A stretch of DNA of 40,168 nt from Methanolobus sp. UBA32 (lineage in GTDB: Archaea; Halobacteriota; Methanosarcinia; Methanosarcinales; Methanosarcinaceae), in assembly GCA_002507205.1 (NCBI GenBank), contig DAZF01000053.1:1-40168 (forward strand). Reading direction: 5' to 3'. The notes below the pieces were generated by a model. That model had not been told where the DNA came from. It did not search any database and worked only from the letters and a program-made list of their open reading frames with translations. Positions 1,024-16,746 of this stretch are shown here, piece by piece (within the stretch, counting starts at the first letter, position 1; every line of letters begins with the position of its first letter). Both the position numbers and the translations under genes were made by a program.

Positions 1024-1419
1024 ATGCTCTCCAAGAATATCAATACAGAATGGTTTCGTACAGAAGAGATATCAGAATTCCTGCATGATGCGAGATATAT
1101 AATTCTGCTTTACATAATAGGGGATTTCATGACAACTTTCCATGCACTAAGCAATGGATACGGATTTGAGGAAAATGGTTTGCTTTCGGGCATAATGGCA
1201 GACAATGGGATCTGGTCATTGCTACTCATTAAAACATTAATCTTACTTATGATCTACTGGAATTACAGATCAATAAGAACATCGATGCATTCCTATGCGA
1301 AGAAATTGTGGGACTTTTCCAGAACAGGGATAAGTCTTTTCGGGCTGATACTTGTAATCAATAACCTGATAGTAATATTTGTAAGATTAAGCCTGTTCGA
1401 GTACCTGGGCCTCTCCTGA
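1024..1419 (+). CDS. Small multipass membrane protein, DUF5658-like
   Basis: This 131-residue protein has about three hydrophobic segments. It carries a pattern reminiscent of the DUF5658 family: an acidic residue in the first membrane helix (IGDFMTTFHAL), a following EENG segment and a lysine in the next helix. No function is established from sequence. Its last 33 bp overlap, tail to tail, the 3' end of the minus-strand AbrB-PhoU gene. A second four-helix protein with a similar layout (15396-15830) overlaps the end of the other PhoU gene, which hints at a recurring partnership. A TATA box ~25 nt before the ATG suggests a leaderless mRNA. The gene is likely real; the family call is tentative. 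Confidence 0.6.
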   Translation: MLSKNINTEWFRTEEISEFLHDARYIILLYIIGDFMTTFHALSNGYGFEENGLLSGIMADNGIWSLLLIKTLILLMIYWNYRSIRTSMHSYAKKLWDFSRTGISLFGLILVINNLIVIFVRLSLFEYLGLS

Positions 1420-2418
1420 AAGAGACTCTTTTACATCGGTTGCTTTCATGTTTATTACCATTTCAGCAATATCTGCACTGTATTCAGCGATACGGTGGAA
1501 GCTTTCAATTATTTTTCTTCTTCTTTCACCGGAAAGAGAGTAAGGTTCACCGGAAACTTCAGACTTCTGGCGGATCTTATTTCCAATTGCAGAGATCATT
1601 CGGGATGTCCTTATTACATTATTTGCAAGGTCGGTATTGATTTCCAGTACGCATATGAAGGAATCCTGAAATAGCTTCTGGGAAAGCAATCCCATCTCAA
1701 CGATATCACCGTTCTCTTCGCTGTTACCATCCATCTGAATCACAGTATGCGCAATTCCCTGAACATGGTCACCTATGCGTTCCATCAATTTAATTATCAA
1801 ACGGTATCCAAGACAATCTTTGGAGTTCTTTATACCTATTTTCCGGGCAAGGTTTGAATCGTCAAGAGCTGCTTTTATCTGCCTGACGCTTAATAGATAG
1901 AATTTGTCAACATCATTATCCCTCTGGGCGATATCTCTGGCAAGTTCAACATCAGCTTCCCTCAAAGCAACAATCGAATCTTCCATCATGGACAAAATAA
2001 TACGGAACATGCTTTGCAGGGATTTTTCCAGGGTTATATCCTGGAAATTCAGAAGATTTTGAAGTACTACTTCTGTCCTGGATTCTTCAACTATCTCAAT
2101 TCCGATGAGACGTTTTCTTGCGGCATCTTTGAGATATTTACGCTCAGCTGCCGTAAAACCTCCAGGAGAAACAACACGGATGATATCATATCCAACAAGA
2201 TAATTCGCAACAAGGAACCTGAAATTCTCTTCCTGATCATCGGAAGTGGTCATCTCAACCATTGAACGAAGAGTCAGTTTCTTGTTACCTGAATCAGGAG
2301 TTATAGAAAGCGAACGGTCAGGTTTTATGTTTAAGAGGACAGTATCTCCTGCACCAAGCCCACCTTCCCTTACCCACTCAATTGGAAGGGAAACTATGTA
2401 TGTCGAACCGCCTGTCAA
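1387..2418 (-). CDS. AbrB-PhoU phosphate regulator, unusual start
   Basis: The N-terminal ~45 residues form an AbrB/SpoVT-like swapped-hairpin domain (TGGSTYIVSLPIEWV). The remainder is a PhoU-like all-helical region with two three-helix units rich in E/D pairs (for example MERIGDHVQGIAH). PhoU proteins bind metals and modulate Pst transport and phosphate signalling; the AbrB fusion suggests DNA binding as well. The only standard start is TTG at 2418, but it falls inside the conserved stretch RKIQLTGGSTY. The frame remains open upstream without ATG, GTG or TTG until a TGA. Alignment with the paralogue at 15784-16746 (MDTRKVQITGKSTY) points to a start about eight codons earlier, near an ATA codon at 2442-2440. 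It lies 49 bp downstream of the pilin-like gene on the same strand. Confidence 0.85.
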   Translation of the reverse strand: MTGGSTYIVSLPIEWVREGGLGAGDTVLLNIKPDRSLSITPDSGNKKLTLRSMVEMTTSDDQEENFRFLVANYLVGYDIIRVVSPGGFTAAERKYLKDAARKRLIGIEIVEESRTEVVLQNLLNFQDITLEKSLQSMFRIILSMMEDSIVALREADVELARDIAQRDNDVDKFYLLSVRQIKAALDDSNLARKIGIKNSKDCLGYRLIIKLMERIGDHVQGIAHTVIQMDGNSEENGDIVEMGLLSQKLFQDSFICVLEINTDLANNVIRTSRMISAIGNKIRQKSEVSGEPYSLSGERRRKIIESFHRIAEYSADIAEMVINMKATDVKESLSGEAQVLEQA

Positions 2419-2467: not shown

Positions 2468-3604
2468 CTAAAGAATTGTCAGATTACCTGAAACCTGACT
2501 GAGCCGAGAGGTCATGCCGTCATCGTCGGTTAGCTCGAGGTCGATTGTAACGTTCTGATCAAGGTATGGGTCAATGTTCATAGGCCTGACAACCATTCCC
2601 GGAAGATTGTAGTTATATAATATTACTGTCCCATTACCCGAATCTTTCCACACAGCCCAGTTATAGCTGGTAATGAAACCATCGGCATCTGTTGAATCAG
2701 ACGCATCGAGTATAAGGTAACTATGTGGGGTCTGGGTCCCGTTGCCGTCCTGCAGATATTCCACCTTAAACTGCACTTCAGCCACTGGCATAGGAGGAGT
2801 GAAAAGTTCCTTGAATACGTTGATATAGGAGGTTATTATTTCGACTTTCAGAGCTTCGTTCTCATATGGAGCCATCCCTGCATAGGAAGTGAAGTCGATC
2901 GTATATGAGATATTGTAATCAGTAGTATTGGTAAGGTTACCACCAAAGTCTGAACCAAAGAAAGTTATCTGTCGTTCATCGTCGTCGATTGAGAAATTAC
3001 CGGTCTCGATGCATTCGGTTCCATTGGACAGGTAATTCACATGGTACTCATAAGGAACTTCACCATAGGCAGGCCATGGATGTTTTTCCAGTGAATATGT
3101 AAAATCAATGCTGTTATTGGTCCATGCAGAAGTACCTATGGTTTCTGTACCCTCTACCATAATATCCGAAAAATTAAGGTGAATGGTTTTGCTTTTTGTT
3201 GCAGGAATCTTTAGCCTGCGATTTGCACTATAAACTGCAGGGTAGTCCCTGTAAGTATCAAACACATCTGAACTTTCATATGCCTTAAAGTGAAGGAAAT
3301 ATCCGCCATTCACACTTATTGAAGAAATGTAGGAATCTTCTATATTGAGATTGAGTATTTTGAGGTCAATGGATTCCAATCTGGAACCATCACCTATTGG
3401 CATGATAGAAACTATTTTTAGATTTTCGTTCTCAACAGATGTTTTATGGCTTTCAAGATCCATAGCCTGTTTCTGGGCAGTAGATATCATGAAAGCAACA
3501 CTTGAAGCTGCGATTATCGTAATAAGTATCAGAAGTAACGTGCCAAATATAACAGTAACTCCACGGGTGTCCCGTAAAAATGCTTTCATATCGTTGCCAA
3601 CCAT
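2468..3604 (-). CDS. Large pilin/archaellin-like protein with C-terminal PKD-like domain
   Basis: This 378-residue protein starts with an archaeal type IV pilin leader. A short basic stretch (MKAFLRDTRG) ends in a class III cleavage motif, RG before VTVIF at residue ~15, and is followed by a ~22-residue hydrophobic helix. Such leaders are cut by PibD/FlaK-type peptidase and the helix packs in pilus cores. The middle is beta-rich with many N-glycosylation sequons. The last ~100 residues (DASDSTDADGFITSYNW and beyond) resemble a PKD/Ig-like fold, so a tip or adhesive pilin is plausible. A TATA box at 3630-3637 is ~28 nt before the ATG. A second in-frame ATG lies at 3589. It probably supplies a subunit for the assembly machinery at 5480-9816, and the AbrB-PhoU gene follows it. 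Confidence 0.75.
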   Translation of the reverse strand: MVGNDMKAFLRDTRGVTVIFGTLLLILITIIAASSVAFMISTAQKQAMDLESHKTSVENENLKIVSIMPIGDGSRLESIDLKILNLNIEDSYISSISVNGGYFLHFKAYESSDVFDTYRDYPAVYSANRRLKIPATKSKTIHLNFSDIMVEGTETIGTSAWTNNSIDFTYSLEKHPWPAYGEVPYEYHVNYLSNGTECIETGNFSIDDDERQITFFGSDFGGNLTNTTDYNISYTIDFTSYAGMAPYENEALKVEIITSYINVFKELFTPPMPVAEVQFKVEYLQDGNGTQTPHSYLILDASDSTDADGFITSYNWAVWKDSGNGTVILYNYNLPGMVVRPMNIDPYLDQNVTIDLELTDDDGMTSRLSQVSGNLTIL

Positions 3605-3709
3605 CTAGGATGAGAAGGCCCATTACAGATTATATACTTTGTTTCTATAATATATATAGCTCCCAATAAACTATTTATTTAGAGGAAATATTCCAAAACC
3701 ATTTAAGCA
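3605..3709. promoter_or_regulatory. Divergent promoter between pilin-like and ArlH-like genes
   Basis: This region holds two AT boxes. A TATATAC-type box at 3631-3637 is placed for the minus-strand pilin gene. CTATAATATATATAG at 3645-3659 is placed for the plus-strand ATPase gene. The second differs by one base, read on the other strand, from CTATATATAATATAG at 5265-5279 upstream of the 55-residue gene, so it could also be a shared operator. With motifs this AT-rich, coincidence is possible. Confidence 0.45.
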
Positions 3710-4405
3710 ATGATTACTTTTAGGGTTTTGATGGTGCTTACTAGCTTCGGTTTGAAAAACGTACCTGCCAATGTGGTACTGTTAATAGAGGAAGATATAG
3801 GAGATGTAAAGAGTGTATTCTTCCGCAAGATAAGCTCCGATGCATTAACGCTCGGAAAAAAAGTACATTATATATCAACAAGAAGTTCCGGAAAGGATAT
3901 TACGACAGAGCTGAATGATTCCGGCGTTCGGAACCTGTCAGAGAACTTTACCATCATAGGTAATTTTTCAGATCCGGTTGCCCTGCTTGATATGTGTTAC
4001 AGAAGACATAAACTGTGCAACAGGCTTTACGGAGAAAATGCAGGTCCGTTACACAATATAATCGATGCAGATGTTTGCATCATTGATATGTTCTCCTCAC
4101 TTTTCATCCACGAGGAAATAGAGGTCGTTTCCGAGGCAATCGAATCACTTATCAATATCAGCAGGGAAGCAAATATCACATTCCTGCTTTCAGCAGATAT
4201 GGGAATACTTCCCGAGAGAGCTGAGAAGATTATCCGCTCCATGGTTGACGGCGTTATCCAGTTCAGGACAGAGTACATGGGCGGTAAGATAAACAGGTAC
4301 ATTAACATACCTAAAATGAAAGGCAGCCTTCCCCTGAATAAAATGATAGCCTACAATGTCACCAGCCAGGGAATCACCATGGATACAAGGGAGAGGGTTG
4401 GTTAA
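3710..4405 (+). CDS. ArlH/RAD55-like RecA-fold ATPase with degenerate Walker A
   Basis: This 231-residue protein has the layout of ArlH (FlaH) and KaiC-like single-domain ATPases. The segment LLIEEDIGDVKS (residues 24-35) aligns with the ArlH loop LLIEGDxGxGKS, but the first and last glycines are E28 and V33; K34 and S35 are kept. A hydrophobic strand ending in Asp (DVCIIDMFSSLF) is the Walker B, and LLSADMG is a plausible sensor strand. ArlH regulates the archaellum motor through ArlI/ArlJ. Here the gene diverges from a pilin-like gene and lies near a TadA/B/C set, so it may regulate that machine. Loss of the glycines suggests weak or absent ATP turnover. An alternative start is ATG 3731, which has AGGG just upstream. 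Confidence 0.68.
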   Translation: MITFRVLMVLTSFGLKNVPANVVLLIEEDIGDVKSVFFRKISSDALTLGKKVHYISTRSSGKDITTELNDSGVRNLSENFTIIGNFSDPVALLDMCYRRHKLCNRLYGENAGPLHNIIDADVCIIDMFSSLFIHEEIEVVSEAIESLINISREANITFLLSADMGILPERAEKIIRSMVDGVIQFRTEYMGGKINRYINIPKMKGSLPLNKMIAYNVTSQGITMDTRERVG

Positions 4406-4430
4406 TATTCCATGGAGAATTCTACCGGGT

Positions 4431-4910
4431 CTATGATTGCATACCTTGCTTTTCTTCCGCATCATTGTATTTTATGAATGAGAGAGGTTTTAAACCATCC
4501 GTTGGATGGTAATTGATAGAGATGAACCTCATTATACTCAATACTAACAACAACGCAGAAAAGACCAGCAAAACATCAGTCTTAAAATTATTACTGTATA
4601 CCAGCACAGTGATCTCACGCATGATCGTCAGAATAGTAGCATCAGTCACGTAGGTAAGCCTTATTCTCTCATGAACACGATAATCAGCGAAGGTCTTGAA
4701 GAGGTCAATGAGAACAAAGATCGTCAGAATACCGTATACTACCTGACTCAGATCACCTGTTTTCAACAATACATACCATATAGTCCGGAAAATATTGAAC
4801 GTTTCTATGATTATTGCCAGCAAGAGTATGTAAAGTACTGTAACCGTCACTGCGTAAATTACTTTTTTGTATATTTTATCATGTAATTGCATTTCGATTC
4901 TCCATAGCAA
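4431..4910 (-). CDS. PsiE-like phosphate-starvation membrane protein
   Basis: This 159-residue protein has four predicted membrane helices. The acidic and basic residues within and between helices are typical of the PsiE family (phosphate-starvation-inducible E): IIIETFNIFR in helix 1, LIDLFKTFADYRVHERIRLTYVTDA between helices 2 and 3, and MREITVLVY after. PsiE has no defined biochemical role, but in bacteria it is induced under phosphate limitation. Its position between the ArlH-like gene and the pst-pilus operon fits a phosphate regulon. An internal ATG at 4892 (MQLHDKIY) is an alternative start. The minus-strand stop lies 25 bp from the end of the convergent ArlH-like gene. Confidence 0.65.
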   Translation of the reverse strand: MLWRIEMQLHDKIYKKVIYAVTVTVLYILLLAIIIETFNIFRTIWYVLLKTGDLSQVVYGILTIFVLIDLFKTFADYRVHERIRLTYVTDATILTIMREITVLVYSNNFKTDVLLVFSALLLVLSIMRFISINYHPTDGLKPLSFIKYNDAEEKQGMQS

Positions 4911-5009
4911 CCAGAATACAGTGTAAAAATGATTCTACTTTTTCAAACAGCAATTACAATCAACATCCAGGTGAAGTTGGAAAATCAGTTAACCTGAATA
5001 TTGAGGATC

Positions 5010-5177
5010 TCATTCCATTATTCCTTCGATCTTAGCACCATCATAATTGCAGCGGGTGTTGATCACTCCCTGAAGGATGGGCTTATACTCTGCATCATCA
5101 TCATCATCGTTTTGAACTTTGACGGAAGCGCCATACTCAGAACCATTTGTTTTTATCCATGTTTTTACTGATTTCAT
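5010..5177 (-). CDS. 55-residue acidic protein of unknown function
   Basis: This short frame encodes 55 residues: MKSVKTWIKTNGSEYGAS, then a run of five aspartates (NDDDDDAE), and it ends in KIEGIME. A textbook ribosome-binding site (GGAGG, minus strand, bases 5185-5189) sits seven nt before the ATG, and a TATA-like box (about 5219-5230) lies further upstream, so the gene is likely real despite its size. One cysteine (TRCNYDG) is present; there is no signal peptide and no membrane segment. I do not recognise a family. It lies between the PsiE-like gene and the end of the pst-pilus operon but is separated from the operon by ~300 bp with its own promoter. Confidence 0.6.
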   Translation of the reverse strand: MKSVKTWIKTNGSEYGASVKVQNDDDDDAEYKPILQGVINTRCNYDGAKIEGIME

Positions 5178-5479
5178 GTTATTTCCTCCACATGTGAGTG
5201 ATATTTATTACTCGTGGAATATTATATAGGATTTACACCAATATTTTAGTAGAACTATGATTGCCTATATATAATATAGAAAAATAAAATTCATTGAAGA
5301 CATGATCGGATAGAACTCCCCAATACCCAGCTAGTAAAACAAGTTAACGATGCGTTTAAGCAGCCTTCTAATCATCGGGAATAACTGAATTTTTGCCAGC
5401 TGATATTAATCGTTTTTCTACAGAGCCATAGTTTCACAGGGCTTTTTATTTTTTGAATACAAAGCTGGAAGAGGTAGGA
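5178..5479 (-). promoter_or_regulatory. Promoter of the 55-residue gene and pst-pilus operon 3' end
   Basis: The GGAGG site is at 5185-5189 and a TATA-like box at about 5219-5230 for the 55-residue gene. CTATATATAATATAG at 5265-5279 nearly matches a sequence in the pilin/ArlH-like divergent promoter. I see no strong stem plus T-tract terminator after the last operon gene and no further gene. Confidence 0.4.
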
Positions 5480-6841
5480 TTATTCACCCTCTCCATAAAC
5501 TATTATCGTTGCTGTACCTTTTGATTCACCTGCCGTTGCGGTGACAATGTATGTCCCGGCATCTGAGCCCGGAATCGGCGTCACTGCTACCGTACCATCT
5601 TCTTCGGTCATGGAACTTGTTATCACCCCGGTTGGCGATATTGTCATCTTGACAAACGTACCTGCAACAGGATTCCCATCCATGTCAGTCACATTGAATA
5701 CGATAGGTTGCTGCAATGGAATCCCGCCAAACGTCAGTTCCTGTCCATTACCGGAAACTACATTGAGCATGTAAGAATCCCCTACACCTGCAGGTAACAG
5801 GAGAGTTACACAGGCTATATAACTCAGGATTATCAGTATTGCCGAATGCTTGAACCCATGCTTTATCTCGCCCTCTGTGATCTGTCCGACTATCAGACCA
5901 CCGAACAGGGCGTTCAGTATGATCATATGGAAAAAACCACGTTCGAAATTGATATCCGAAAGACCTGCTCCACCGAGCATCTCCATGCCCACACCCTGAA
6001 TTAAAGGAAGCAGGGATGTGGAAAGGATGTACGTTAGCATTACAATGATACCCTGGGCAAGGTAGAAAATTACAATGTACTGCTTGAGGTTTGCCTCTTT
6101 TTCCTTCTGGATGTTTATTACTGCCCTCATATCTTCCGAAGTACGGAACAACAGGTCAGCAACATTACCTCCGGTATAGGCAGCCTGTACCACCACATCG
6201 ATATATCTGGCAACAAGACGGCTTTTCATTGATCTTGACATCTTATGCATGGATTCATCAAACGATTTACCCAGAACCATTGAAGAAGCTGCATCCTGTG
6301 CATTGCTGCTTATCACACCAAGGTTTGTCTTTGAGAGATTTATAAATCCCTTCACAGGATCAATACCACCCCTCATCAGTTCAGACAGCTTGTAAAGGAA
6401 CTCACTGAAAGCCAGTTCCCTCTTTTGCAGAAGTCTTTTTTGAAGGAAAGAATCAATGGAATATGGGATCAGTGCCACCAGTATGGCAAAGATCATTATG
6501 TGATCCAGATCGTCCTTGGCCTTGTCTTCTTCGGGCTCCGGTTCGACCTCCTCCTCTTCAACTGCTACGACTTCACCTCTTTCTGCTGCCTCCGAAGCTT
6601 CCATCTCAGCCACAAGAGCTTCGTATGCAGCCTGTTTTGCAGCGGTTTCATCATTAACAGGAGCACTGCCCTGTGCATCATCCGTTACAAAAGAATGCCC
6701 GGTAAGGACCGCCATTAATACAATCATCAAAGCAGCAAATATTGGAATACCAAGGCTAAGATACTCACGCTTGATATCATAGCGTATTGTCAACATCTGT
6801 ACGTAGCGTTGCATCGTCAGACGATATTTTTCAATATTCAT
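5480..6841 (-). CDS. TadC/ArlJ-like pilus platform protein with C-terminal Ig-like domain
   Basis: This T2SF-type inner-membrane platform protein (~453 residues) is the last gene of the pst-pilus operon. In order it has a membrane helix near residues 30-50, an unusual acidic linker (VEEEEVEPEPEED), a second helix, the cytoplasmic T2SF bundle (SELMRGGIDPVKGF through TSEDMRAVINIQKEKE), and about three more helices. It ends with a ~100-residue beta-rich tail (NVTDMDGNPVAGTFVKM through TYIVTATAGE) that looks like a bacterial Ig-like (Big-1) fold and would face outside. The start at 6841 is chosen because AAGGAG (6848-6853) precedes it and it overlaps the upstream stop as ATGA; an in-frame ATG at 6868 lacks this. 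It partners with the TadB-like protein and the ATPase. Confidence 0.82.
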   Translation of the reverse strand: MNIEKYRLTMQRYVQMLTIRYDIKREYLSLGIPIFAALMIVLMAVLTGHSFVTDDAQGSAPVNDETAAKQAAYEALVAEMEASEAAERGEVVAVEEEEVEPEPEEDKAKDDLDHIMIFAILVALIPYSIDSFLQKRLLQKRELAFSEFLYKLSELMRGGIDPVKGFINLSKTNLGVISSNAQDAASSMVLGKSFDESMHKMSRSMKSRLVARYIDVVVQAAYTGGNVADLLFRTSEDMRAVINIQKEKEANLKQYIVIFYLAQGIIVMLTYILSTSLLPLIQGVGMEMLGGAGLSDINFERGFFHMIILNALFGGLIVGQITEGEIKHGFKHSAILIILSYIACVTLLLPAGVGDSYMLNVVSGNGQELTFGGIPLQQPIVFNVTDMDGNPVAGTFVKMTISPTGVITSSMTEEDGTVAVTPIPGSDAGTYIVTATAGESKGTATIIVYGEGE

Positions 6842-7755
6842 AGAGTACTCCTTGAATATTTCATCCACAATAGAAGGAGGAAAATAATGTTAATGAACGG
6901 CAGCATGAAGTAGACGAAGAACTGGAACATCTGTTTAGCTGTGAATGGTCCCAGGTCAATACCAAGTGCGCTTGTAACCACAATCATCAGTACTACAAGT
7001 ACAACACTCATGACAACTCCACTGAGATAGCCTTCCCCATACACACCCAGAGATTCTACAAACTCCTGCTGCATCTGCCGTCTCATGTCCATGAGTTCCC
7101 TGGATTTCATCTCAAGATAGGTACGCAGACCACCACCGGATTGCATGGAATTTGCAAGGTCTATACATATGGTCCTGAGCGATTCTGAGGACGTATTGCG
7201 TATAAGGTGGTTCATGGCGCTGATACCGTCCTCACCCAGAACATCCACACGGTACATTACCTTACCAAATTCGGTTGAAACATCACCATAATCCTCTATG
7301 GCAACTTTTCTGATAACATCCATTGGGGAGGAACCCGAGCTTGCAAGGATGGTCATATACCCCAATACAAAGGGCAGTTCATGCTCAATATTCATGTCCT
7401 TGCTGGAAATCTTGTTGTAGAGAATGAAAGGGAAGCCGCTGACTGTCAGGACGAAAGTGAGAAACGTCAGGACAGAGATATATACAAGAGGTGACGAGGA
7501 ATTCCTGAAAAAAATAATGGAGAATATGAAGACTATGATAGAAGCCAGTGCTGCTGTTACCAGTGCAAGGGACACAAACATCCCCGGAGTCAGTACCATG
7601 TCTGCCTGATAAAGTGACTTTGAAATATCATCCTGCGGTTTTTTGTCTATATATTTACCTAATACATAGCAAAACATCTTGTATTTTTCTATATACTTGT
7701 TAGTACCCCCATCATTGAAAGCCTGATGGACATCGATATCCCGGGTCTTGACCAT
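6838..7755 (-). CDS. TadB-like pilus platform protein (T2SF domain)
   Basis: This 305-residue membrane protein has a T2SF domain. The N-terminal cytoplasmic part is followed by two helices (about residues 60-115), the helical domain (MNIEHELPFVLGYMTILASSG, then SMQSGGGLRTYLEMKSREL), and two C-terminal helices. In type IV pilus and Tad systems paired T2SF proteins anchor the assembly ATPase at the membrane. The ATG at 7755 follows the ATPase TAA (7758-7756) with no gap, and its TGA overlaps the TadC-like ATG, so the three proteins are translated in series. No odd features were seen. Confidence 0.82.
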   Translation of the reverse strand: MVKTRDIDVHQAFNDGGTNKYIEKYKMFCYVLGKYIDKKPQDDISKSLYQADMVLTPGMFVSLALVTAALASIIVFIFSIIFFRNSSSPLVYISVLTFLTFVLTVSGFPFILYNKISSKDMNIEHELPFVLGYMTILASSGSSPMDVIRKVAIEDYGDVSTEFGKVMYRVDVLGEDGISAMNHLIRNTSSESLRTICIDLANSMQSGGGLRTYLEMKSRELMDMRRQMQQEFVESLGVYGEGYLSGVVMSVVLVVLMIVVTSALGIDLGPFTAKQMFQFFVYFMLPFINIIFLLLLWMKYSRSTL

Positions 7756-9816
7756 TTAATGATTCAGCTCCATCAGCTCGTCTTTCTGTCTTGAGTATTT
7801 CCTGATGGCTTTGGCAACTGCTTCGTATTCGTGAATACCGTCACGTGCAAGGTTTTCAAGATATGTTGCTCTCAAATCCATCTCCCTTACAAGTTCAGCC
7901 TGTTCGATACCGAATTCTTCATTTATATCGTCAAAGAGGGCACTACTGCCACTGAACTCATATTCATCGGTTACCGGATTCCATTTGAAAACCGGATTTG
8001 TTATCAGATCGCCACGTTCAGGGTCAAGTTCTGCAATTTCCACGATCCTCAGTGCACGCCTGAGATAATGTTCACCGACCTTTATCATGGAATTAAAAAT
8101 GACCATATCAACACTGGCAAACAGATTACGGGGCACGTTCATGGGTTCTGATTCTACCCTTGATAACAGTTCGTGTATTGAACCCGCGTGTATGGTACCC
8201 ATACATGGGTGACCCACAGAGATAGCCTGGAAAAGAGTACCGGCTTCAGCACCACGACCCTCACCAACCACTATGTATTCCGGTCTCTGTCTCAAAGCAG
8301 CTTTAAGCAGGTCGAAGAGTTCGATGTCTCCTGCGGATTTTCCGTGTTCACCGCTGCCGCCACCAAAACCAGCCCTTGTGATGGACTGGGTCCAGTTAGG
8401 GTGCATGAGGTTCATTTCGGCGGTATCCTCAATGGATACTATCTTGTATTCAGGCGGAATGAATGCTCCCAGTGCATTGAGGGTTGTGGTTTTACCGGAT
8501 GCGGTTCCACCTGCTGCCAGTACGGAACGTTTGTATTCTACCATGAGCCAGAAATAGGCAAGCACTCTTGAATCGTAGGTCTTGTAATTCATCAGGTCAA
8601 TGCAGGATACCGGATTGGACCTGAAACGCCTGATGGTGAATGTCGAACCTCTTTTTGTGACCTCTTTTCCAAGTGTGAGGTTGGCACGGCTCCCATCCAC
8701 AAGGGTTGCATCCCTGATGGGTTCCAGCACGGAAATATGCCTGCCTGCTGCCTGTGCCATCCTCATGACAAAATTGTTGAGTTCTATTTCCTCATAAATC
8801 ACATCAGTAGCCACGGAACCATAGACCCTGTGATTGACATACAATGGGGTGAAAGGACCATTACATGTGATATCCTCAAGATAAGGGTCGTTCATCAGGA
8901 GATCCATCCTGTCAAAGCCCATGTATTTTTTATGCAGATAATAGAAGAATTTGTCTTTCTGCCCATCACTGAGTTTCAGGCGATATATATCCACGATCAG
9001 GTCGAACCTGTCCCTTAAGGCCTCTACACGATCTTCTTCTTCTACCAGCAAAATCTCGGAGTGTGCCATCTTGTCAAAGGCATTCTGTATAATATACAAA
9101 GCTTCCTTTTCAGTATCACTCAAAGGAGGCTCAAGACAGCGATAAACAAGTGATTCTTCTTCAAATCCAATATGAACATACTGGCACCCGGGAGTAACTT
9201 CATAGGTAATATCCACTTCCTTTTGAGGAAACCCGGGAGCAGGAACAGACAATTCACCAATAACGAACTCTATTTCTTCGATATTTTCAGGTTTGGGGGT
9301 TATTATCTGTTCTATCTTCTTTAGAAGTAAAGAAACTGAGGACTCTTCGGCAGACTCCTGTTCCTGCTCATTTACGGATGTTGCTTCATCGTGATCTGTG
9401 GATAAAGAAGGCGTTTTCTTATTTTTTTGGAGATTTAAACCGAACTTCCGTTTCTTTTTAGCGGGTTTATCGTTCTGTTTTTCATCATCCAATAGAACAA
9501 TCGTCTCTTCTGATATAGTTTCGGTTTGTTCAGGGCTTTTTTTATCTCTGGAGGACTTCCTGCTTTTCTTTCTCAGACCCAAACCGAATTTTCTCTTTTT
9601 AGCAGGCACTTCTTCCTTTTCTTCTTGTGGAAGAGGAAGTTCCTCTTTATCAATATCCCCGTTGCCGGAGAACTGAGCAACATCTGCTTGTTGTTCAATT
9701 TCTTCTCTGGAATAGACTGAAGTATCTTTGATATCTGTTTCTTCCTTAATAATTAGAGCCAGTTCAGAAGATGGTTTTTTTCTACTGAGCCTTGATTTTA
9801 GCTGGAGTTTAGCCAA
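7756..9816 (-). CDS. Type II/IV secretion (pilus assembly) ATPase, TadA/ArlI family
   Basis: This 686-residue motor powers pilin assembly. Motifs are Walker A GGTASGKTT (436-444), Asp box SIEDTAE (461-467), Walker B ending in YIVVGE (E519) and His box TIHAG (541-545). The first ~200 residues are a charged, low-complexity extension with two copies of KKRKFGL (73-79 and 121-127), each followed by basic residues. The start is TTG at 9816: GGAGG (9824-9828) sits seven nt upstream and the codon overlaps the last codons of pstA by 8 bp. Being translationally coupled to a phosphate permease gene is unusual for this family. The canonical pst ATPase PstB is not encoded nearby, and this protein lacks ABC signature motifs, so it does not replace PstB. 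Confidence 0.92.
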   Translation of the reverse strand: MAKLQLKSRLSRKKPSSELALIIKEETDIKDTSVYSREEIEQQADVAQFSGNGDIDKEELPLPQEEKEEVPAKKRKFGLGLRKKSRKSSRDKKSPEQTETISEETIVLLDDEKQNDKPAKKKRKFGLNLQKNKKTPSLSTDHDEATSVNEQEQESAEESSVSLLLKKIEQIITPKPENIEEIEFVIGELSVPAPGFPQKEVDITYEVTPGCQYVHIGFEEESLVYRCLEPPLSDTEKEALYIIQNAFDKMAHSEILLVEEEDRVEALRDRFDLIVDIYRLKLSDGQKDKFFYYLHKKYMGFDRMDLLMNDPYLEDITCNGPFTPLYVNHRVYGSVATDVIYEEIELNNFVMRMAQAAGRHISVLEPIRDATLVDGSRANLTLGKEVTKRGSTFTIRRFRSNPVSCIDLMNYKTYDSRVLAYFWLMVEYKRSVLAAGGTASGKTTTLNALGAFIPPEYKIVSIEDTAEMNLMHPNWTQSITRAGFGGGSGEHGKSAGDIELFDLLKAALRQRPEYIVVGEGRGAEAGTLFQAISVGHPCMGTIHAGSIHELLSRVESEPMNVPRNLFASVDMVIFNSMIKVGEHYLRRALRIVEIAELDPERGDLITNPVFKWNPVTDEYEFSGSSALFDDINEEFGIEQAELVREMDLRATYLENLARDGIHEYEAVAKAIRKYSRQKDELMELNH

Positions 9817-10702
9817 TTCTGTGCCTCCATACTAGAAGTCTAGTGACTGCGTTGATAATCATAACGATTACTATAAGCACAAAGGCAGCAGCAAACCCTT
9901 CCGAAGGTGAGACCATACTTGGGAATTCAAATGAATGATATACCGTTATCGGAAGAGCGGCTACCAGATCTTGGAAAGGAGAAAAGCGCAACCCAAAGAG
10001 CAGACTGTCTTTTGGAGCCACGCCGAATTCCGGCATGAACTGCGTATATCCCGCCGTCAGGACGACAACCGCCGATTCCTCGGCAGCCCTTCCTATGCTA
10101 AGGACTATACCCGTAGCGATACCCGCGAGGGCATAAGGCAAAGTGATCTTGCTTATAGTTTCCCATTTTGTAGCTCCCATTGCATAGCTTGCTTCTTCCA
10201 GCTCCCCGGGAACTGAATTGATAGCCTCTTCGGATGCACGTTCGATCACAGGCAGTATCAGGATTGTAAGAGCGATAGCACCTGATATGAGTGAGAAACC
10301 ACCTGTAATGAAACGCATATAGTACACAAGGAACATCAGTCCGAAAATACCCAGAACTATTGAAGGAGTGCCTGAAAGTACGTCTATCACGAAACTGAAG
10401 GTCTTTTTAAATCGCTCATTCGTTGCATATCGTTTCATGTATATTGCGGTCCCTATGGCTATTGGAGCCGCCAGAATCGTTGATGTGAGTGATAGTAATA
10501 TGGTACCCACAACTGCATTGCCGATCCCGCCTCCAAAACCTTTTACCTCATTCTCAGGAGTGAAGATGAATTCAGAAGTAAGGCTCGGAAGTGCTTCAAA
10601 CGCGATCTTGCCCAGAATACCGAAAAGAGTAAGTGTTGCAATTGCTGCCGAAAAATAGCACAGGAATATGTAAAAGGATGCTTTTATCTTTCTATGGTTC
10701 AT
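9809..10702 (-). CDS. pstA: Phosphate ABC transporter permease PstA
   Basis: This 297-residue, six-helix permease has the EAA loop (EEASYAMGATKWETISKITLP) that docks the ABC ATPase. With PstC it forms the phosphate channel fed by PstS. The ATG overlaps the pstC stop as ATGA (10699-10702), and its 3' end overlaps the secretion ATPase start by 8 bp. The conserved EAA loop implies that a PstB-type ATPase exists elsewhere in the genome, as none is in this window. The length and the GTPSIVLGIFGL motif fit the family. Confidence 0.94.
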   Translation of the reverse strand: MNHRKIKASFYIFLCYFSAAIATLTLFGILGKIAFEALPSLTSEFIFTPENEVKGFGGGIGNAVVGTILLSLTSTILAAPIAIGTAIYMKRYATNERFKKTFSFVIDVLSGTPSIVLGIFGLMFLVYYMRFITGGFSLISGAIALTILILPVIERASEEAINSVPGELEEASYAMGATKWETISKITLPYALAGIATGIVLSIGRAAEESAVVVLTAGYTQFMPEFGVAPKDSLLFGLRFSPFQDLVAALPITVYHSFEFPSMVSPSEGFAAAFVLIVIVMIINAVTRLLVWRHRIG

Positions 10703-11700
10703 TTCCTGTCCCCCACTAGATGTCTTGAAACCGCAACAAAGATGATCTCTATTGCAAAGAGGACCGCTGCTATTCCAAACAATGCAGCACGTGGCTCAGG
10801 TTCATTAAAGTGATGACCAATATCATTGAGAATCTTTGAGGTCATTGCATATCCAGGACCCATTATCGAAGAAGGGATAGTATTGGAATTACCCAGCAAC
10901 ATGACAATTGCCATAGTCTCTCCCATTGCACGCATCATGCCGAGTACTACCGCAGCCATGATGCCTCCTGATGATGCAGGTAGCACAACTTTTCTTATTG
11001 TCTCCCACCTGTTGGCACCCAGGGAGAAGGAAGCATGTCTACTCTCCACGGGAACGGAACGGATCGCATCCTCGGAAATTGTTGTGATTGTTGGGAAGAT
11101 CATGATCGCAAGAACCGTGGAAGCCAGAAGTACTCCGACCCCGGAACCTGGGTTCAGGTCTACAAATATGGGGATGAAACCCAGGAGTGAATCTATAAAT
11201 GGCTCAATGCTATTCTGGAATATATTTTCCAGTACGAACAGGCCAAATATACCGTAAACTACCGATGGAATACCTACCAGCAGTTCGATAAAAGGCCTGA
11301 TAGTGGAAGCAACTCGGGGAGATGCGATCTCTGAGAGGAAAATTGCCGTGAAAATGCTTAAAGGGACTGCCATGAATAATGTTACGACAGTCATGATGAT
11401 GGTGCCGGCTATATAGGTTCTGATACCGTATATGTTATTGGAGTAGTTCCATACATCACCGGTAATGAAATACAGTCCCTGGCTTTTGAAGACCGGTAAT
11501 GCCGTATAGAAGATGAATCCTACAAAGAAGACCACGATGAGTGTGATGATGATGCTGCAGGCTAAAAAAAGCAGTTTTGCTGCAGTATTGTACAGTTCTC
11601 TCTGACCTGATCCATAAGAACTGAATCCGAAAATATCATTTATCAGAACCCAGGCAGATTCCTTGTTCGTTACCTGTTCATATAATTCTCTGCTGCCCAT
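10699..11700 (-). CDS. pstC: Phosphate ABC transporter permease PstC
   Basis: This 333-residue permease has an N-terminal cytoplasmic stretch, then helices including FVGFIFYTALPVF, the motif GIPSVVYGIFGL and an EAA loop (ESRHASFSLGANRWETIRK). It pairs with PstA. It begins 60 bp after pstS; that gap holds a perfect hairpin followed by a T-rich tract on the coding strand, so pstC may be transcribed at a lower level than pstS. No clear ribosome-binding site precedes the ATG at 11700. AGGA just before the pstA start shows coupling to the next gene. Confidence 0.94.
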   Translation of the reverse strand: MGSRELYEQVTNKESAWVLINDIFGFSSYGSGQRELYNTAAKLLFLACSIIITLIVVFFVGFIFYTALPVFKSQGLYFITGDVWNYSNNIYGIRTYIAGTIIMTVVTLFMAVPLSIFTAIFLSEIASPRVASTIRPFIELLVGIPSVVYGIFGLFVLENIFQNSIEPFIDSLLGFIPIFVDLNPGSGVGVLLASTVLAIMIFPTITTISEDAIRSVPVESRHASFSLGANRWETIRKVVLPASSGGIMAAVVLGMMRAMGETMAIVMLLGNSNTIPSSIMGPGYAMTSKILNDIGHHFNEPEPRAALFGIAAVLFAIEIIFVAVSRHLVGDRK

Positions 11701-11720
11701 GATAATCGTTTTAAAATAAA

Positions 11721-11749
11721 AAGAGGAGATTTGTGCTTGTGCACAAATC
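11721..11749 (-). terminator. Hairpin with T-rich tail between pstS and pstC (attenuator/processing site)
   Basis: On the minus strand GATTTGTGC, loop ACAA and GCACAAATC (11749 down to 11728) form a perfect 9-bp stem, followed by TCCTCTTTTTATTTT. It sits 12 nt after the pstS stop and 27 nt before pstC. Partial termination or 3'-end protection here would give more PstS than permease, the usual need for binding-protein transporters. Confidence 0.65.
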
Positions 11750-11760
11750 TTTATTTAAAC

Positions 11761-12738
11761 TTACTTGTACTCGATTACGGAGAAGTATCCTACTTCGTGG
11801 AAGATTTCCATTGCTGCTGGAGACATTGCGTAGTTGATGAATGACTGCTCAACAGTGGATGGGTTTCCGTTTGTAAGGTAGTTGAGTGGCCTTGTGAGGG
11901 AGCTCTGGTAGGTGTCCTTCCCGGAGAGTGCATCAAGTACGTTGGACTCGGTTACATCGTTGTATCCGTCTACACCGATGATGTTAACTATGTCTGAGCT
12001 TGCTGCAAATCCAAAGTCTACGAAACCGATTGAGTCAGCGTTACCTTCTACTGCAGCGAGTACACCAGCGTTTCCTACTGCGCCTTCTGCTTCGGATGCG
12101 TCAACGTCCTTTGCACTCTTGTAGTCGCCACCAAGGTAATTTGCGAATGTCTCTTCTGTTCCGCTTGCTTCAGATCTCTGGTAGAGTGTGATTGTTGTAC
12201 TACCATTTTGGGTGATGTTACCTGCTGTGATGTCGATGTCTACAGTACCATCTTTACAGGCGTCGTACATTGCCTTGAGTTGAGTCTGTGTGGTGTTACC
12301 AGCAATGTTGCTTCCACCGATAGCTACTACTGCACTGCCACCAATCTCGAATACCTTAAGGTCTGGGTGGTCGTTTACTGTGTCAACAGGCTTGGATGCT
12401 GCACCGATGTCGATGATGTCAAGTTCTGCTGAGGTGATACCTGCACCGGAGCCGCCGCCCTGTACGGTTACTTTAATTCCGCTGTGGTCTTTCATGAATG
12501 CTTCTGCGAGTAATTCAGAAACAGGCTGGACGGTTGTTGAACCAGCGACAAGAAGTTCGGTTGATGCTGCAGATGTTGCATCGCCTGCACTTGCACTGTC
12601 TGACACGTCTGATGAGAATGATCCCATGATTGTTCCTACTGCTGCTGCACCAGCGATTGCAACTACTACTAATACGAGAGTTGCAACGATAGGTGAAACA
12701 CCAGCTTCATCGTTGAATAGTCTTTTTAATAAGTTCAT
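11761..12738 (-). CDS. pstS: Phosphate-binding protein PstS with pilin-type class III signal peptide
   Basis: This 325-residue PstS has an unusual export signal. Residues 1-13 (MNLLKRLFNDEAG) end at a class III cleavage site before VSPIVATLVLVV, followed by a ~22-residue helix and a Ser/Ala/Asp linker to about residue 58. This matches the archaeal type IV pilin N-terminal domain rather than a lipobox or Sec signal. The binding domain then shows LLVAGSTTVQPVSELLAEAF, GGGSGAGI and RSEASGTEETF, the phosphate-contact loops of PstS. Cleavage by a PibD-type peptidase would leave a helix able to enter a pilus-like fibre or act as an anchor. Downstream operon genes encode both the permeases and a pilus ATPase/platform, supporting the idea of assembled binding proteins. 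Confidence 0.92.
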   Translation of the reverse strand: MNLLKRLFNDEAGVSPIVATLVLVVVAIAGAAAVGTIMGSFSSDVSDSASAGDATSAASTELLVAGSTTVQPVSELLAEAFMKDHSGIKVTVQGGGSGAGITSAELDIIDIGAASKPVDTVNDHPDLKVFEIGGSAVVAIGGSNIAGNTTQTQLKAMYDACKDGTVDIDITAGNITQNGSTTITLYQRSEASGTEETFANYLGGDYKSAKDVDASEAEGAVGNAGVLAAVEGNADSIGFVDFGFAASSDIVNIIGVDGYNDVTESNVLDALSGKDTYQSSLTRPLNYLTNGNPSTVEQSFINYAMSPAAMEIFHEVGYFSVIEYK

Positions 12739-13045
12739 ATTTATCGTACACCAATTTTGTTTATGTTCCTATTTGAAGCGGGTTTTAATCGCTCTGGCAC
12801 CTAATTGGATGTTGAATATATAATACTTCTACAAGTCATGTATATAGTTGAATTTTCAATATAGATTTGTGATATCTCTATATATTAGTGCATATACAAC
12901 AATGGATTTTGCTTAACTACTGAATAATAAACAAATACAACAAAAAATGAAAGTCAAGAATAAAAAAACGCTCAAGAATAACGATAAATATTATTGCAAC
13001 AAAAAATAAAAGGAAATACAAATATGCAGTTGTAAACTACAGCAA
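12739..13045 (-). promoter_or_regulatory. pstS promoter region with palindromes
   Basis: A TATA-like box on the minus strand (12814-12826) predicts a start site near 12790 and a ~50-nt leader. GGTG about 12 nt before the ATG is a weak ribosome site. Upstream of the TATA box lie an imperfect palindrome around TTGAA-TT-TTCAA (12848-12859) and TATAGA (12860-12865) paired with TCTATA (12877-12882). These are well placed for an activator. The rest, up to the surface-protein stop, is A-rich with no gene. Confidence 0.45.
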
Positions 13046-15085
13046 TTATTTTGTTATCAGGGTAGATACAAGAGCAAAGACAGCCAGTGCGATAACGATG
13101 ACAATTGCATACAGATAGTTTTCAACAGCATCTATGGCAGCATTTTCAGCCATGCCGAAGATAGAGGTGAAACCACTTAAAACGCCACTAAAGGTATTGC
13201 CAACGAACTGTTGCATCTTGTTAAAAAGACCTTCTATAGAACCTATTATGTTCGAGAGAAATGTAGGTGCTAAAGACTCCTGCTGAACTTCCAGGGATAT
13301 ATCTAATGCTTCCGGTATTTCATCTTCTACGGAATACAGATCTTCATCCACATCTTCTTCTTCTGGTTCCGGTTGTAAAGCAACTGCCGTTGTAACTTCC
13401 AGATCTTCAGGATTGGAAATCCATCCACCGTTCAAAGGTTCCCAGTATTGTTTGACCTCAGAGCCACCAACATAGAATGAAGACTGTGCTTCCCCATCAT
13501 AATTTCCAATACCCCTGAACTCACATACTGCAGGAGGAAGGTCTGGTGCACTGGAAGAACTGAAATCATAGCCAAAAGTAAGTGTTGAGCCTGGCGGGAG
13601 AAGTACCCCTTCTACAGAGACAATTTGTATACCATTGACCCTTGAAACGCTAAGATCCCATTCACTTAGCGGCAAATCGCTCCCTTCCAGGCTCTTTTCC
13701 AAACTACCACCCACATAGCTTAGTTCATAGGGAATAATATCTGTCAGGTTTACCCAGGATGCACGGTCTCCATCATTGTACGCTTTAAGAGTGACCGAGT
13801 AATCTGTGCCTGAACCGGACAGAGATTTGGACAGGATTACATGAGGACCATGGACTGTTATACTGCCTGATTCGGAATTCCAGGTGAATTCCTTTCCAAA
13901 AAAGTTTGCAGTGGCAACTACGCTGTCAAAAGGGTATTCACCCTGTCTTATTGGAATCAGCTTTTGCCCGAGATAATACTGTCCGTCAGGAGCCATACCC
14001 CTGTAACTACCTGACTCATATGTTTCATAAATAACAAATTCATCCGGCACCTGTGTAAAGTCTATAGTCAGATCATCAACCGTATACAGTCCGGTATTAT
14101 AAACATGGGTCCTGAGGAATGAATACTCCCATGCATCCCGAATCTCATAATCCTTAGAGGTCCGGCTATAGGTACTGCTTTCAAATTCCCGGACATACCA
14201 GGAAGTCATATTGATCTCTTCGTCCACTATCTCAAAAACAACCTTCATATCAGGGTCAGTACACCCAAACGAGTAAGAACTATCGGCATCAAAGTAACCA
14301 TCCTTTATGTCGTAGCCTCCAGCAGTTGCATTGACATAATAGATAAGCTCATAAGGAGAGGTCTTCCCATCCCATTCAGGTGCAACTATAGTAAAATTGA
14401 TGCTGGCAGTATCACCGACTTCAAGGCAGCCAAGGTTCTTTTTTATAATTCCATCCCTGTACTCAAAATCCCCTTTAGCTTTAAGTCTGAACTCACCAAT
14501 ATCAACATTAAGGATTGCATTCTCAATCCAGGCTTCGCCAGTATTTTTCACTTCCACATCAATGTGTTTCTCTTCACCCGGAGCGTATTGTTCTGATGAG
14601 ACATCAACACCATCGACCGTCTCAGAACTTGCTTCAATAGTTATTTCAAGTTCCGGCCGTCCTCTTGAGAAAATCTCCACATGAGCAGAAGGTGTTTTCT
14701 GACCATCTTCGGTAATATCGGTGAGTTCCACTTTAACCTCATTATCCCACTCCAACCACTTCCGGTCATAATCACCATTCAGAAAAAGGAATTCTTTCCT
14801 GACAACTCCGCCTTTCTCAATTGAGATCAAAGCTGCACCCAGGTCTTCATCAAAATCGTCTGCCCTGAAAGTATAAGTAATGTCATTAACCACCTGGGTT
14901 GCTGTACGTCCCCACTGTATACTAAGTGAGCCTTCACTGACCCACTGCACACAGGTATCAAGGTCATCGCATGGACAATTAGTATTTGCAGATGCAAGAG
15001 GTAGGAATGAAGAGAATAGCAATATTATTGCTGTGATGTAGAACAGACTAAGTATAGGTCCAGACGTTTTTTTCACCAGGTCCAC
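13046..15085 (-). CDS. Large cell-surface protein, CARDB/DUF11-like domains, C-terminal anchor
   Basis: This 679-residue exported protein has a Sec signal (KKTSGPILSLFYITAIILLF through SASA-like LASAN). It is followed by a cysteine-bearing segment (CPCDDLDTC), a beta-rich region (TYTFRADDFDEDLGAALISI), a CARDB/NEW3-like domain (YAPGEEKHIDVEVKNTGEAW), a later DUF11-like domain (LPPGSTLTFGYDFSSS), an acidic linker and a C-terminal membrane helix (LYAIVIVIALAVFALVSTLI). This resembles COG1361-type archaeal envelope proteins. It lies 307 bp upstream of pstS on the same strand. The start is GTG at 15085 or GTG at 15076; GGTGGAG just upstream better suits the second. The function is not known; an envelope scaffold or docking role for the phosphate system is a guess. 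Confidence 0.7.
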   Translation of the reverse strand: MDLVKKTSGPILSLFYITAIILLFSSFLPLASANTNCPCDDLDTCVQWVSEGSLSIQWGRTATQVVNDITYTFRADDFDEDLGAALISIEKGGVVRKEFLFLNGDYDRKWLEWDNEVKVELTDITEDGQKTPSAHVEIFSRGRPELEITIEASSETVDGVDVSSEQYAPGEEKHIDVEVKNTGEAWIENAILNVDIGEFRLKAKGDFEYRDGIIKKNLGCLEVGDTASINFTIVAPEWDGKTSPYELIYYVNATAGGYDIKDGYFDADSSYSFGCTDPDMKVVFEIVDEEINMTSWYVREFESSTYSRTSKDYEIRDAWEYSFLRTHVYNTGLYTVDDLTIDFTQVPDEFVIYETYESGSYRGMAPDGQYYLGQKLIPIRQGEYPFDSVVATANFFGKEFTWNSESGSITVHGPHVILSKSLSGSGTDYSVTLKAYNDGDRASWVNLTDIIPYELSYVGGSLEKSLEGSDLPLSEWDLSVSRVNGIQIVSVEGVLLPPGSTLTFGYDFSSSSAPDLPPAVCEFRGIGNYDGEAQSSFYVGGSEVKQYWEPLNGGWISNPEDLEVTTAVALQPEPEEEDVDEDLYSVEDEIPEALDISLEVQQESLAPTFLSNIIGSIEGLFNKMQQFVGNTFSGVLSGFTSIFGMAENAAIDAVENYLYAIVIVIALAVFALVSTLITK

Positions 15086-15094
15086 TCTCCACCA

Positions 15095-15395: not shown

Positions 15396-15830
15396 TTATT
15401 TCCTCTTCAGCACCTCATAACCGAACACGGATATTGCGATTATGATAGAGGTAAGGGAAAGCATGAAGATCATATTTGAATATGTTTCCTTCAGAATGAA
15501 CCATGACAGACCGCCCATCACATGAGTGATACTCATAAGCAATATCACAAAGACACCAATGGGATAGATATCTTCATTTTCCAGGAATTTGAGAATGGTG
15601 TATCCCATAAGATAGTAGAAAATGACCGTAAAGGCAAGGTATGGAAGAACAATACCGTTCTTTACTGCGAATACCAGAGTGGGACTGAATTCATGTTCAA
15701 GTATATTCCCTATGCTGCCGGCAAAATAAAAGGTAAGGGAATAATCAATTATGACTGCTGCACAGAGGAAAAGAGGGATCAATCTATAATTGTGATAGAT
15801 CGATCGCAGACTCTGCAATATTTGAAGCAT
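15396..15830 (-). CDS. Four-helix membrane protein paired with AbrB-PhoU gene
   Basis: This 144-residue protein has about four membrane helices. An aspartate-threonine pattern (IIDYSLTFYFAG), a following glutamate (LEHEF) and a lysine before helix 3 (VKNGIV) resemble the layout of the 1024-1419 protein and, loosely, DUF5658. Its first 47 bp overlap the 3' end of the co-directional AbrB-PhoU gene, which suggests translational coupling. It ends with a basic KRK. The function is unknown; the pairing suggests a membrane target or sensor for PhoU. No alternative ATG would remove the overlap without deleting the first helix. Confidence 0.6.
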   Translation of the reverse strand: MLQILQSLRSIYHNYRLIPLFLCAAVIIDYSLTFYFAGSIGNILEHEFSPTLVFAVKNGIVLPYLAFTVIFYYLMGYTILKFLENEDIYPIGVFVILLMSITHVMGGLSWFILKETYSNMIFMLSLTSIIIAISVFGYEVLKRK

Positions 15831-16746
15831 AATCTTTTATCCTGCTGAAACTGTCAATTATCAATTCAACGGAATGTTCGCTCGGTAACTGGCTGGCATA
15901 GATGAGTTTTTCGTTGAACGTTTTCTCCCTGCCAAGAACTTCATTTGCAAGCTCACTGTTGGATTCCCTGAGTGCCTCGGTGCTATCCATAAATAGGGTC
16001 TGGCAATCCTTGCACAGTTCAACCAGTATAGAAAGAACATCATCTGGCAGTGCAATATAAGAAAAATGTAATGATATTTTAGATATGTGGTCTCCGATAC
16101 GTTCTATCTCATTGGCTGCAAGACGATAGTAAAAAGATCCCACAAGACTCAGATTATCATTCTTTGAAGCTTTTTTCAGGTTAAGGCGTTGAACATATTG
16201 TTTTGATACAAGAAGGAACATGCGATCCAGGTCATCATCACGGGTTATTATATGATTACACAGATCCCGGTCATTTTCTGTAAATGCCATTGCAAGTTCG
16301 TCCAGCATAAGATAGACAAGAGAGGACATTCTTTTGAGACCTTTTTCTATGGTGAAATCTTCAGTATCAAGGAAATTCTTAATTACTATTTTCTTATCAC
16401 TGCTTTCGACGACCTCAAGTCCCACAAGACGATGACATAGTTCTTTGATCTGCCGGCGTACATCAGTCGGAATATTATCTCCAGTCAGTTCTATTATCTG
16501 ATAGTCTTCAACGATATACAGGCCTACGATATCCCTTATTATATGATCCAGCTGCTTATTGAGCTTTATCTTCTTAATCTTTTTAGAAGGCTTTACAGCA
16601 GGAGGTTGGAGAAGTAAGGAACCATCTTCCTGGTAAAAAATAGATATATGAGAACCAGCTTCCAACTTTGAACGAAGCGCCCATTTTTTAGGCAGGGTCA
16701 TAACATAAGTGGATTTGCCCGTTATCTGCACTTTTCTGGTATCCAT
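15784..16746 (-). CDS. AbrB-PhoU phosphate regulator (second copy)
   Basis: This 320-residue protein starts MDTRKVQITGKSTYVMTLPKKWA, an AbrB/SpoVT-like domain of ~45 residues, then a PhoU-like helical region with the metal-ligand style segment ANEIERIGDHISKISLHF and a second repeat ending SRIKDYASNIAESAIDL. Its layout equals the copy at 1387-2418, so the phosphate/pilus region is flanked by paralogues. A TATA-like box near 16795-16803 predicts a ~27-nt leader. The 3' end overlaps the four-helix membrane protein gene. It may regulate pst expression or PstABC activity; the AbrB part suggests nucleic-acid binding, which is inference. Confidence 0.88.
   Translation of the reverse strand: MDTRKVQITGKSTYVMTLPKKWALRSKLEAGSHISIFYQEDGSLLLQPPAVKPSKKIKKIKLNKQLDHIIRDIVGLYIVEDYQIIELTGDNIPTDVRRQIKELCHRLVGLEVVESSDKKIVIKNFLDTEDFTIEKGLKRMSSLVYLMLDELAMAFTENDRDLCNHIITRDDDLDRMFLLVSKQYVQRLNLKKASKNDNLSLVGSFYYRLAANEIERIGDHISKISLHFSYIALPDDVLSILVELCKDCQTLFMDSTEALRESNSELANEVLGREKTFNEKLIYASQLPSEHSVELIIDSFSRIKDYASNIAESAIDLSQL

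Follow-up and report, generated by a model that had tools for sequence, protein, structure and literature searches.

Phosphate-transport genes joined to a type IV filament-type assembly machine in Methanolobus and other archaea

Gene content of the Methanolobus locus

The window analyzed here is a 40,168-nt stretch of the genome of Methanolobus sp. UBA32 (contig DAZF01000053.1, assembly GCA_002507205.1), in which genes for a phosphate-binding protein and two phosphate permeases adjoin genes for a type IV filament-type assembly machine. The minus-strand order is p679, pstS, pstC, pstA, assembly ATPase, TadC1 and TadC2. A first-pass annotation, made from the sequence without database searches, had placed six of these genes, pstS to TadC2, at 5480..12738, and family searches back the names it gave them. 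PstC (10699..11700) and PstA (9809..10702) score 294 bits against TIGR02138 (cut-off 196) and 266 bits against TIGR00974 (cut-off 193), respectively, and both are of a pilus-linked type, set apart in the case of PstA by a dedicated profile. The machine genes encode a VirB11/ArlI-like assembly ATPase (7756..9816; T2SSE, 105.6 bits) and the platform proteins TadC1 (6838..7755; T2SSF, 45.3 bits) and TadC2 (5480..6841; T2SSF, 53.4 bits), so that components of a type IV filament system are present with one T2SSE and two T2SSF matches over cut-off.

As the first-pass annotation had also noted, every junction from pstC onward overlaps or abuts. An ATGA is shared by pstC and pstA (10699-10702), pstA overlaps the ATPase gene by 8 nt (9809-9816) with a GGAGG preceding the TTG start, the ATPase and TadC1 genes abut at 7756/7755, and a second ATGA joins TadC1 to TadC2 provided that TadC2 starts at 6841 (its longest open reading frame [ORF] starts at GTG 6868). 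This six-gene core stood, but the extent assigned to the unit proved too small: it reaches from about 1387 to 16746 and adds two PhoU proteins, a pilin-like protein, a KaiC-like protein, a PsiE-family protein and a multi-domain surface protein.

The pstS gene (11761..12738, minus strand) is separated from pstC by a 60-nt gap, and folding of the 70 nt past its stop places a hairpin with a T-tract at 11713..11750 on the same strand. In the order of genome G001, a stem of at least eight pairs followed by a T run was found at 22 of 23 pstS ends and at 9 of the 222 ends of other genes in these loci (23 of 25 loci were used, those with a cut or missing pstS being excluded, and the shuffle controls preserve base content only). 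Among Methanomicrobiales, folding revealed no hairpin in L120 and L121, a weak one in L025 and another fold in L013. The likely effect of the hairpin is that PstS is made in excess of PstC and PstA, which would suit either a binding protein or the subunit of a filament.

Linkage of the pst genes to the machine across archaea

Scanning genome contigs with an alignment of PstS sequences yielded 38 loci; the compared loci are related, and counts over them do not represent independent events. The same gene set occurs in Methanolobus and other Methanosarcinales, in one ANME-1 genome and in several Methanomicrobiales, in which TadC1, TadC2, the KaiC-like gene and m144, a small membrane protein gene, lie upstream of pstS, with pstSCA and the ATPase gene staying joined. 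Other arrangements are seen in L027, L028, L029, L031 and L033-L036, and several contigs end too early. In the order of G001, the PstA profile splits two kinds of PstA, with 25 genomes at 434-530 bits, one cut copy at 259 bits, and the remaining listed matches at 196 bits or less. By this measure the pilus-type PstA is present in 26 of 149 genomes of that order, in 5 of 100 in a second order, and in 26 of 392 genomes of an even phylum draw that overlaps with the order samples.

Of 22 loci in the order of G001 with a contig that continues, 21 have the assembly ATPase downstream of the pilus-type PstA; L096, L102, L103 and L114, where the sequence stops at PstA or shortly after it, are not counted among the 22. 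The ATPase of L095 is split over two frames. ORFs that we take to be transposase-like are interposed between pstA and the ATPase gene at L098:8486-9315. In the second order, the ATPase is next to the pilus-type PstA in four of five loci; in G173, two ORFs of more than 400 aa intervene and the stretch read holds only the start of a likely ATPase. The same arrangement occurs in G257 and G308. Searching relatives for pst genes adjoining pilus genes, as the first-pass annotation had proposed, thus recovered the arrangement in several lineages, often with overlapping junctions, and a neighborhood unique to one genome, which would have spoken against that annotation, is not what was found.

A phylogeny of 69 ATPases places the Pst-linked ones in a single clade, with 23 rows on one side of a branch with an SH-aLRT value of 100 in a quick method run without bootstrap. 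The tree drew on 81 ATPase ORFs above a length and score floor, with the window added and 13 omitted (six duplicates, four cut copies and three full-length Pst-linked sequences, from L107, L109 and L113). An ATPase profile applied to the 149 genomes scores at least 957 bits in 24 of the 26 with a pilus-type PstA, the others being G014, with a cut copy at 650 bits, and G065, with weaker matches only; a cut ATPase scoring 869 bits also lies at the edge of a contig in one further genome, G156. In the draft ANME-1 genome G009, the Pst-linked ATPase is the sole T2SSE match at E ≤1e-10. A dedicated pilus-type machine tied to a pilin-type PstS, as the first-pass annotation had proposed, is well supported, and the genetic link itself is firm.

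In L028, L031 and L033 (Methanocalculus and Methanocorpusculaceae), a PstS without a clear pilin motif lies about 7 kb from a pilus-type ATPase and TadC; the ATPases of L028 and L031, the two in the tree, fall outside the Pst-linked clade. In L030, an ORF at 11034-12323 has a PstC-like beginning and then resembles the 378-aa pilin-like protein of the cluster, and pstA and the machine genes are missing, which looks like a deletion across the cluster.

A variant of the locus was found in seven genomes, one of them Candidatus Methanoperedens, with an ATPase of 675-704 bits and no pilus-type PstA. Across the 8.5-15 kb read at each of the seven loci, ATPase, TadC1 and TadC2 are present in all, as is at least one PhoU (cut in L202), and neither permease gene was matched. 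Six of the seven also encode a PstS-like protein whose N-terminus resembles that of a pilin; the L202 contig ends before the place of this gene. These N-termini carry the SP motif in three cases and ST or SM instead in the other three. In all six proteins a conserved arginine is replaced by methionine and GST by SSD, with D, S and most of SGT kept. L201 and L204 encode nearby a second, more distant pilin-type PstS-like protein in which these residues are largely kept, so that these genomes may still encode a protein that binds phosphate.

The pilin-type PstS, its permeases and PstB

The window PstS scores 66.5 bits against PBP_like_2, over the cut-off, and 109 bits against NCBIfam TIGR02136, below the cut-off of 206.6. 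Its predicted structure has a PstS fold preceded by a helix at residues 16-39, modeled at low confidence, and a disordered linker. The first-pass annotation had read a class III pilin signal in DEAG before VSP. A pilin-type N-terminus is present, as it is in relatives, but the strict motif is not: a DEAG/VSP cut puts A at position -2, and that position is charged only if the cut falls one residue earlier (DEA/GVSP). Among 120 relatives listed, 118 carry a class III motif, with a charged -2 in 40, a charged -2 only with the earlier cut in 63, and neither in 15.

The pilin segment of PstS (residues 14-45) has a mean identity of 87% (least, 66%) across 24 loci, compared with 49% for the binding domain; this set leaves out L094, with its cut PstS N-terminus, and including it gives 80% versus 48%. 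Among the 11 Methanolobus-like loci the values are 99% and 53%. Control windows of 32 residues, taken as the best of each protein, have mean identities of 0.73 in PstC, 0.81 in PstA and 0.92 in the ATPase, so that the pilin segment stands out from the rest of PstS and from other membrane segments, but not above a catalytic core. When nine genomes were searched with this segment, 11 places scored 54.7-86.3 bits, with at least one per genome; each of the places that were mapped is a PstS gene. No other match exceeded 25.2 bits, and we reject a pilin helix common to all pilins of these genomes. Haloferax PilA pilins, by comparison, are described as sharing a conserved H-domain that is required for pili (PMC4371748).

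The residues that contact phosphate are retained in the PstS type that comes with permeases. The positions compared were picked from conservation, from the match to the phosphate-bound structure 4gd5 and, in part, from what we take to be the binding positions of E. coli PstS. A second pilin-type PstS gene adjoins a PhoU gene in four loci (L097:2933, L102:6684, L108:15356 and L133:529), on the opposite strand near p679 in the first three and elsewhere in genome G120 in the case of L133; in L097 and L102 the binding site of this second copy is changed, with SGP for SGT.

Pairwise identities of PstS, PstC and PstA covary across the 11 Methanolobus-like loci (Spearman 0.81-0.90), as do those of the ATPase and TadC2 (0.82), compared with -0.40 to -0.02 for pstSCA against machine, PhoU and surface genes. 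Comparing the DNA of L109 with that of L110 gives identities of 0.89-0.96 for the stretch from the ATPase core through TadC2, 0.51-0.68 in pstSCA and 0.62-0.79 in p679; between L098 and the window, PstA is 93% identical and the ATPase 71%. Tree tests, on groups picked after inspecting the identity table, reject the exchanged groupings (p = 3.8e-5 for the pst data; 1.9e-38 and 8.0e-7 for the machine data). The three pst genes have thus been swapped as a block within a fixed machine.

No window ORF of at least 60 aa combines a Walker A motif with an ABC signature, and the first-pass annotation was right that no pstB, or other ABC ATPase gene, is present in the window. Its statement does not extend to the system as a whole, as other genomes with the cluster encode PstB elsewhere or nearby. 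A PstB match was obtained in all 14 genomes tested, above the cut-off of the family in 13 and as a fragment at a contig edge in one, and a conventional pstA or pstC adjoins PstB in 11 of 14 (short stretches, with the second copy of G012 counted). In seven of eight such regions, one per genome, the conventional PstS carries a GIGC motif that is presumably a lipobox; no PstS was found in the eighth. PstB also lies within the stretch fetched around the cluster in five loci: a conventional operon or its end is directly upstream of the cluster in L012 and L017, PstB lies beyond the pilin-like gene in L022 and L023, and a conventional operon is about 5 kb away in L030.

The pilus-linked PstC and PstA retain the loops that couple to an ABC ATPase, and in PstA an AEES motif replaces the IGET-type motif. 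With these loops kept and PstB encoded elsewhere or nearby, a hybrid importer using the pilus ATPase in place of PstB is not favored. PstA bears a long C-terminal extension in L032:12096-14828, L221 (on the L032 contig), L122:11693-14539, L022 and L023, of about 600 aa with more predicted membrane stretches in L032 and L122 and of about 200 aa in L022 and L023; the L122 extension has no Pfam match.

A candidate phosphate-dedicated filament system and its relatives

We propose, with a probability of roughly 0.6, that the cluster encodes a phosphate-dedicated type IV-filament system that mounts PstS, with PstS feeding PstC and PstA and PstB acting in trans. We infer cleavage and mounting of PstS, a filament, phosphate hand-over, sharing of PstB and regulation, in the following way. 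PstS would be synthesized in a prepilin-like form, presumably processed by a prepilin peptidase, and held via its pilin helix. The ATPase, TadC1 and TadC2 would mount it, with the 378-aa protein and p679 as further parts, in a surface complex resembling a bindosome or in a short filament that displays many phosphate-binding heads, from which phosphate would pass to the co-encoded permeases. PstB would usually be supplied by a conventional pst operon, and the PhoU-type proteins would link the system to phosphate. The proposal is favored by a linkage that outlasts rearrangement, by the single ATPase clade, by the hyperconserved pilin segment, by a pilin-type PstS that stays with the machine where permeases were not found, by the phosphate contacts and ABC-coupling loops that are kept, and by the lipobox-like motif carried instead by the conventional PstS. 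A candidate peptidase is available in most cases: Peptidase_A24, the prepilin peptidase family, was found in 8 of 10 related genomes, and in G141 its gene is inside the cluster (L222; G141:C1:3855497-3856399), with PhoU1 on one side of it and the pilin-like gene and a 1478-aa ORF on the other.

Several observations weigh against this proposal. Carriers are scattered through the order of G001 (26 of 149 genomes); G045, the sole exception among the 22 loci, has pstSCA and the machine on different contigs; and the block exchange of pstSCA implies that cassette and machine can part. No Peptidase_A24 was found in G198 and G009, both with the cluster, among the 10 genomes searched. The class III motif of the window PstS is not strict, its low-confidence pilin helix is split from the head by a disordered linker in the model, unlike a compact pilin, and the ATPase also has windows conserved as highly as the pilin segment.

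A more elaborate version of the proposal, which we rate as improbable, is a phosphate-harvesting filament: PstS heads would line a type IV filament extended, and perhaps retracted, by its own machine, and pstSCA would be a swappable surface cassette in which heads diversify, for instance under virus attack, and the near-invariant helix keeps versions compatible with the machine.

The strongest competitor, though an improbable one, is that the pilin helix of PstS is a mere anchor and that the machine builds an ordinary pilus for adhesion out of other pilins, the 378-aa protein for example, the two being joined as both are wanted at low phosphate. The pilin-like protein in the cluster, PhoU and PsiE genes that suit phosphate regulation, and the flexible linker predicted in PstS all agree with such an anchor. 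A mere anchor would nonetheless not need a near-invariant sequence, the linked ATPase clade is specific to the pst setting among the genomes tested, and the pilin-type PstS remains with the machine after loss of binding residues. Less probable still is a sensor, in which PstS, PstC and PstA transport little and instead signal phosphate to the PhoU proteins, and these in turn activate or silence the pilus. The window without pstB and a unit flanked by two PhoU proteins would suit it; the ABC-coupling loops retained in PstC and PstA argue against it, and PstB near the cluster in the five loci listed above favors real ABC transport over a pure sensor. A chance neighborhood, with a mobile pstSCA cassette sitting in a pilus operon, would explain exchange of pstSCA independently of its flanks and is very improbable given a linkage that recurs in many species and lineages, through rearrangement and with overlapping junctions.

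The proposed mounting of PstS has its closest precedent in the Sulfolobus bindosome, in which binding proteins with pilin-type signal peptides work with ABC transport and a pilus-type ATPase and platform are needed for surface function; a review has already proposed that bindosomes may be widely distributed (PMC4187195). The cluster resembles it in a binding protein with a putative pilin-type signal, in a pilus-type ATPase and platform, and in ABC transport genes, and differs in serving phosphate rather than sugars and in gathering the genes for binding protein, permeases, PhoU and machine at one place. Its ATPase reaches 183 bits, with a BasE cut-off of 1000, which says little on functional likeness because the BasE model is specific; two T2SSF genes stand here in place of a single BasF (best score 33.5 bits, cut-off 1300); and no set of three BasABC pilins was seen, one pilin-like gene besides pstS being recognized in the cluster. 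The first-pass annotation's comparison with a bindosome therefore holds as a working likeness and not as membership, given the BasE score, the two platform genes and the co-clustered permeases and PhoU.

Clade 2 of the euryarchaeal type IV pili is described as combining an ATPase, two tadC-like genes, an Ig-like minor pilin and an S-layer-like protein (PMC4858521). The ATPase and two TadC genes are common to both systems, whereas here the pst genes belong to the unit; the terms "phosphate" and "ABC transporter" do not occur in the main text of that census. Relative to conventional PstSCAB, PstC and PstA pass their family cut-offs and the fold and main contact residues of PstS fit, whereas PstS scores below the TIGR02136 cut-off and appears to be pilin-anchored, PstB is outside the operon in the window, and PstA has AEES for the IGET-type motif. 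In Methanosarcina mazei, pstSCAB-phoU transcripts are reported to rise under phosphate starvation (PMC6864096). The ATPase resembles ArlI of the archaellum (402 bits), and a KaiC/ArlH-like protein is present; an archaellum derivative is rejected, however, as the ArlI cut-off of 550 is missed and the ATPase stands apart in the tree from those labeled, by inference, as archaellum ATPases.

The first-pass annotation had held that pst operons are not described in this way, and we met no earlier description of a pst-linked pilus machine in the open-access literature searched, in which the longest result lists were covered in part. The hyperconservation of the pilin segment, the block exchange of pstSCA, the hairpin after pstS and the Methanoperedens-type variant are new here. 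If the proposed system is real, bindosome-like nutrient capture by pilus machinery extends beyond sugars and Sulfolobus, and occurs patchily in methanogens and anaerobic methane oxidizers, tied to a defined transporter. The exchange of pstSCA as a block within a fixed machine is a natural experiment that can show which portion of a pilin has to fit the machine.

Accessory genes of the unit

TadC2 carries a C-terminal Ig-like stretch, possibly a docking point for PstS, that matches Big_1 at 28.5 bits in the window, below the cut-off of 34.9; it is over the cut-off in L013 only, below it also in L112 and L003, and absent in the variant L199. Upstream of pstS, p679 (13046..15085, minus strand) is retained in many loci and is modeled as a surface protein with several beta domains and hydrophobic helices at both termini. 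It could not be assigned to a known family, having no Pfam or NCBIfam match and only loose multi-domain beta matches in a fold search (TM-scores about 0.2). The small membrane protein m144 (15396..15830, minus strand), with no Pfam match, is kept in many loci; a relationship between m131 and m144 found no support.

The 378-aa pilin-like protein (2468..3604, minus strand) is probably a minor pilin, with an N-terminus conserved in alignment and a TIGR02537 score of 16.5 bits, below the cut-off of 20. The KaiC/ArlH-like protein (3710..4405, plus strand) matches the Pfam KaiC family at 38.7 bits and shows no clear Walker A on alignment; its gene is on the opposite strand in relatives too. The PsiE (phosphate-starvation-inducible E) family protein (4431..4910, minus strand) scores 35.2 bits (cut-off 23.9), was matched in one relative locus only, L208, and is an uncertain member of the unit. 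PhoU2 (15784..16746, minus strand) joins an AbrB/MazE-type domain (MazE_antitoxin, 35 bits) to PhoU (75 bits). PhoU1 (1387..2418, minus strand), at 67 bits against TIGR02135 and below the cut-off, is assigned to the PhoU family with an N-terminus alignable with that of PhoU2, to which it is 29% identical, and is retained in many loci.

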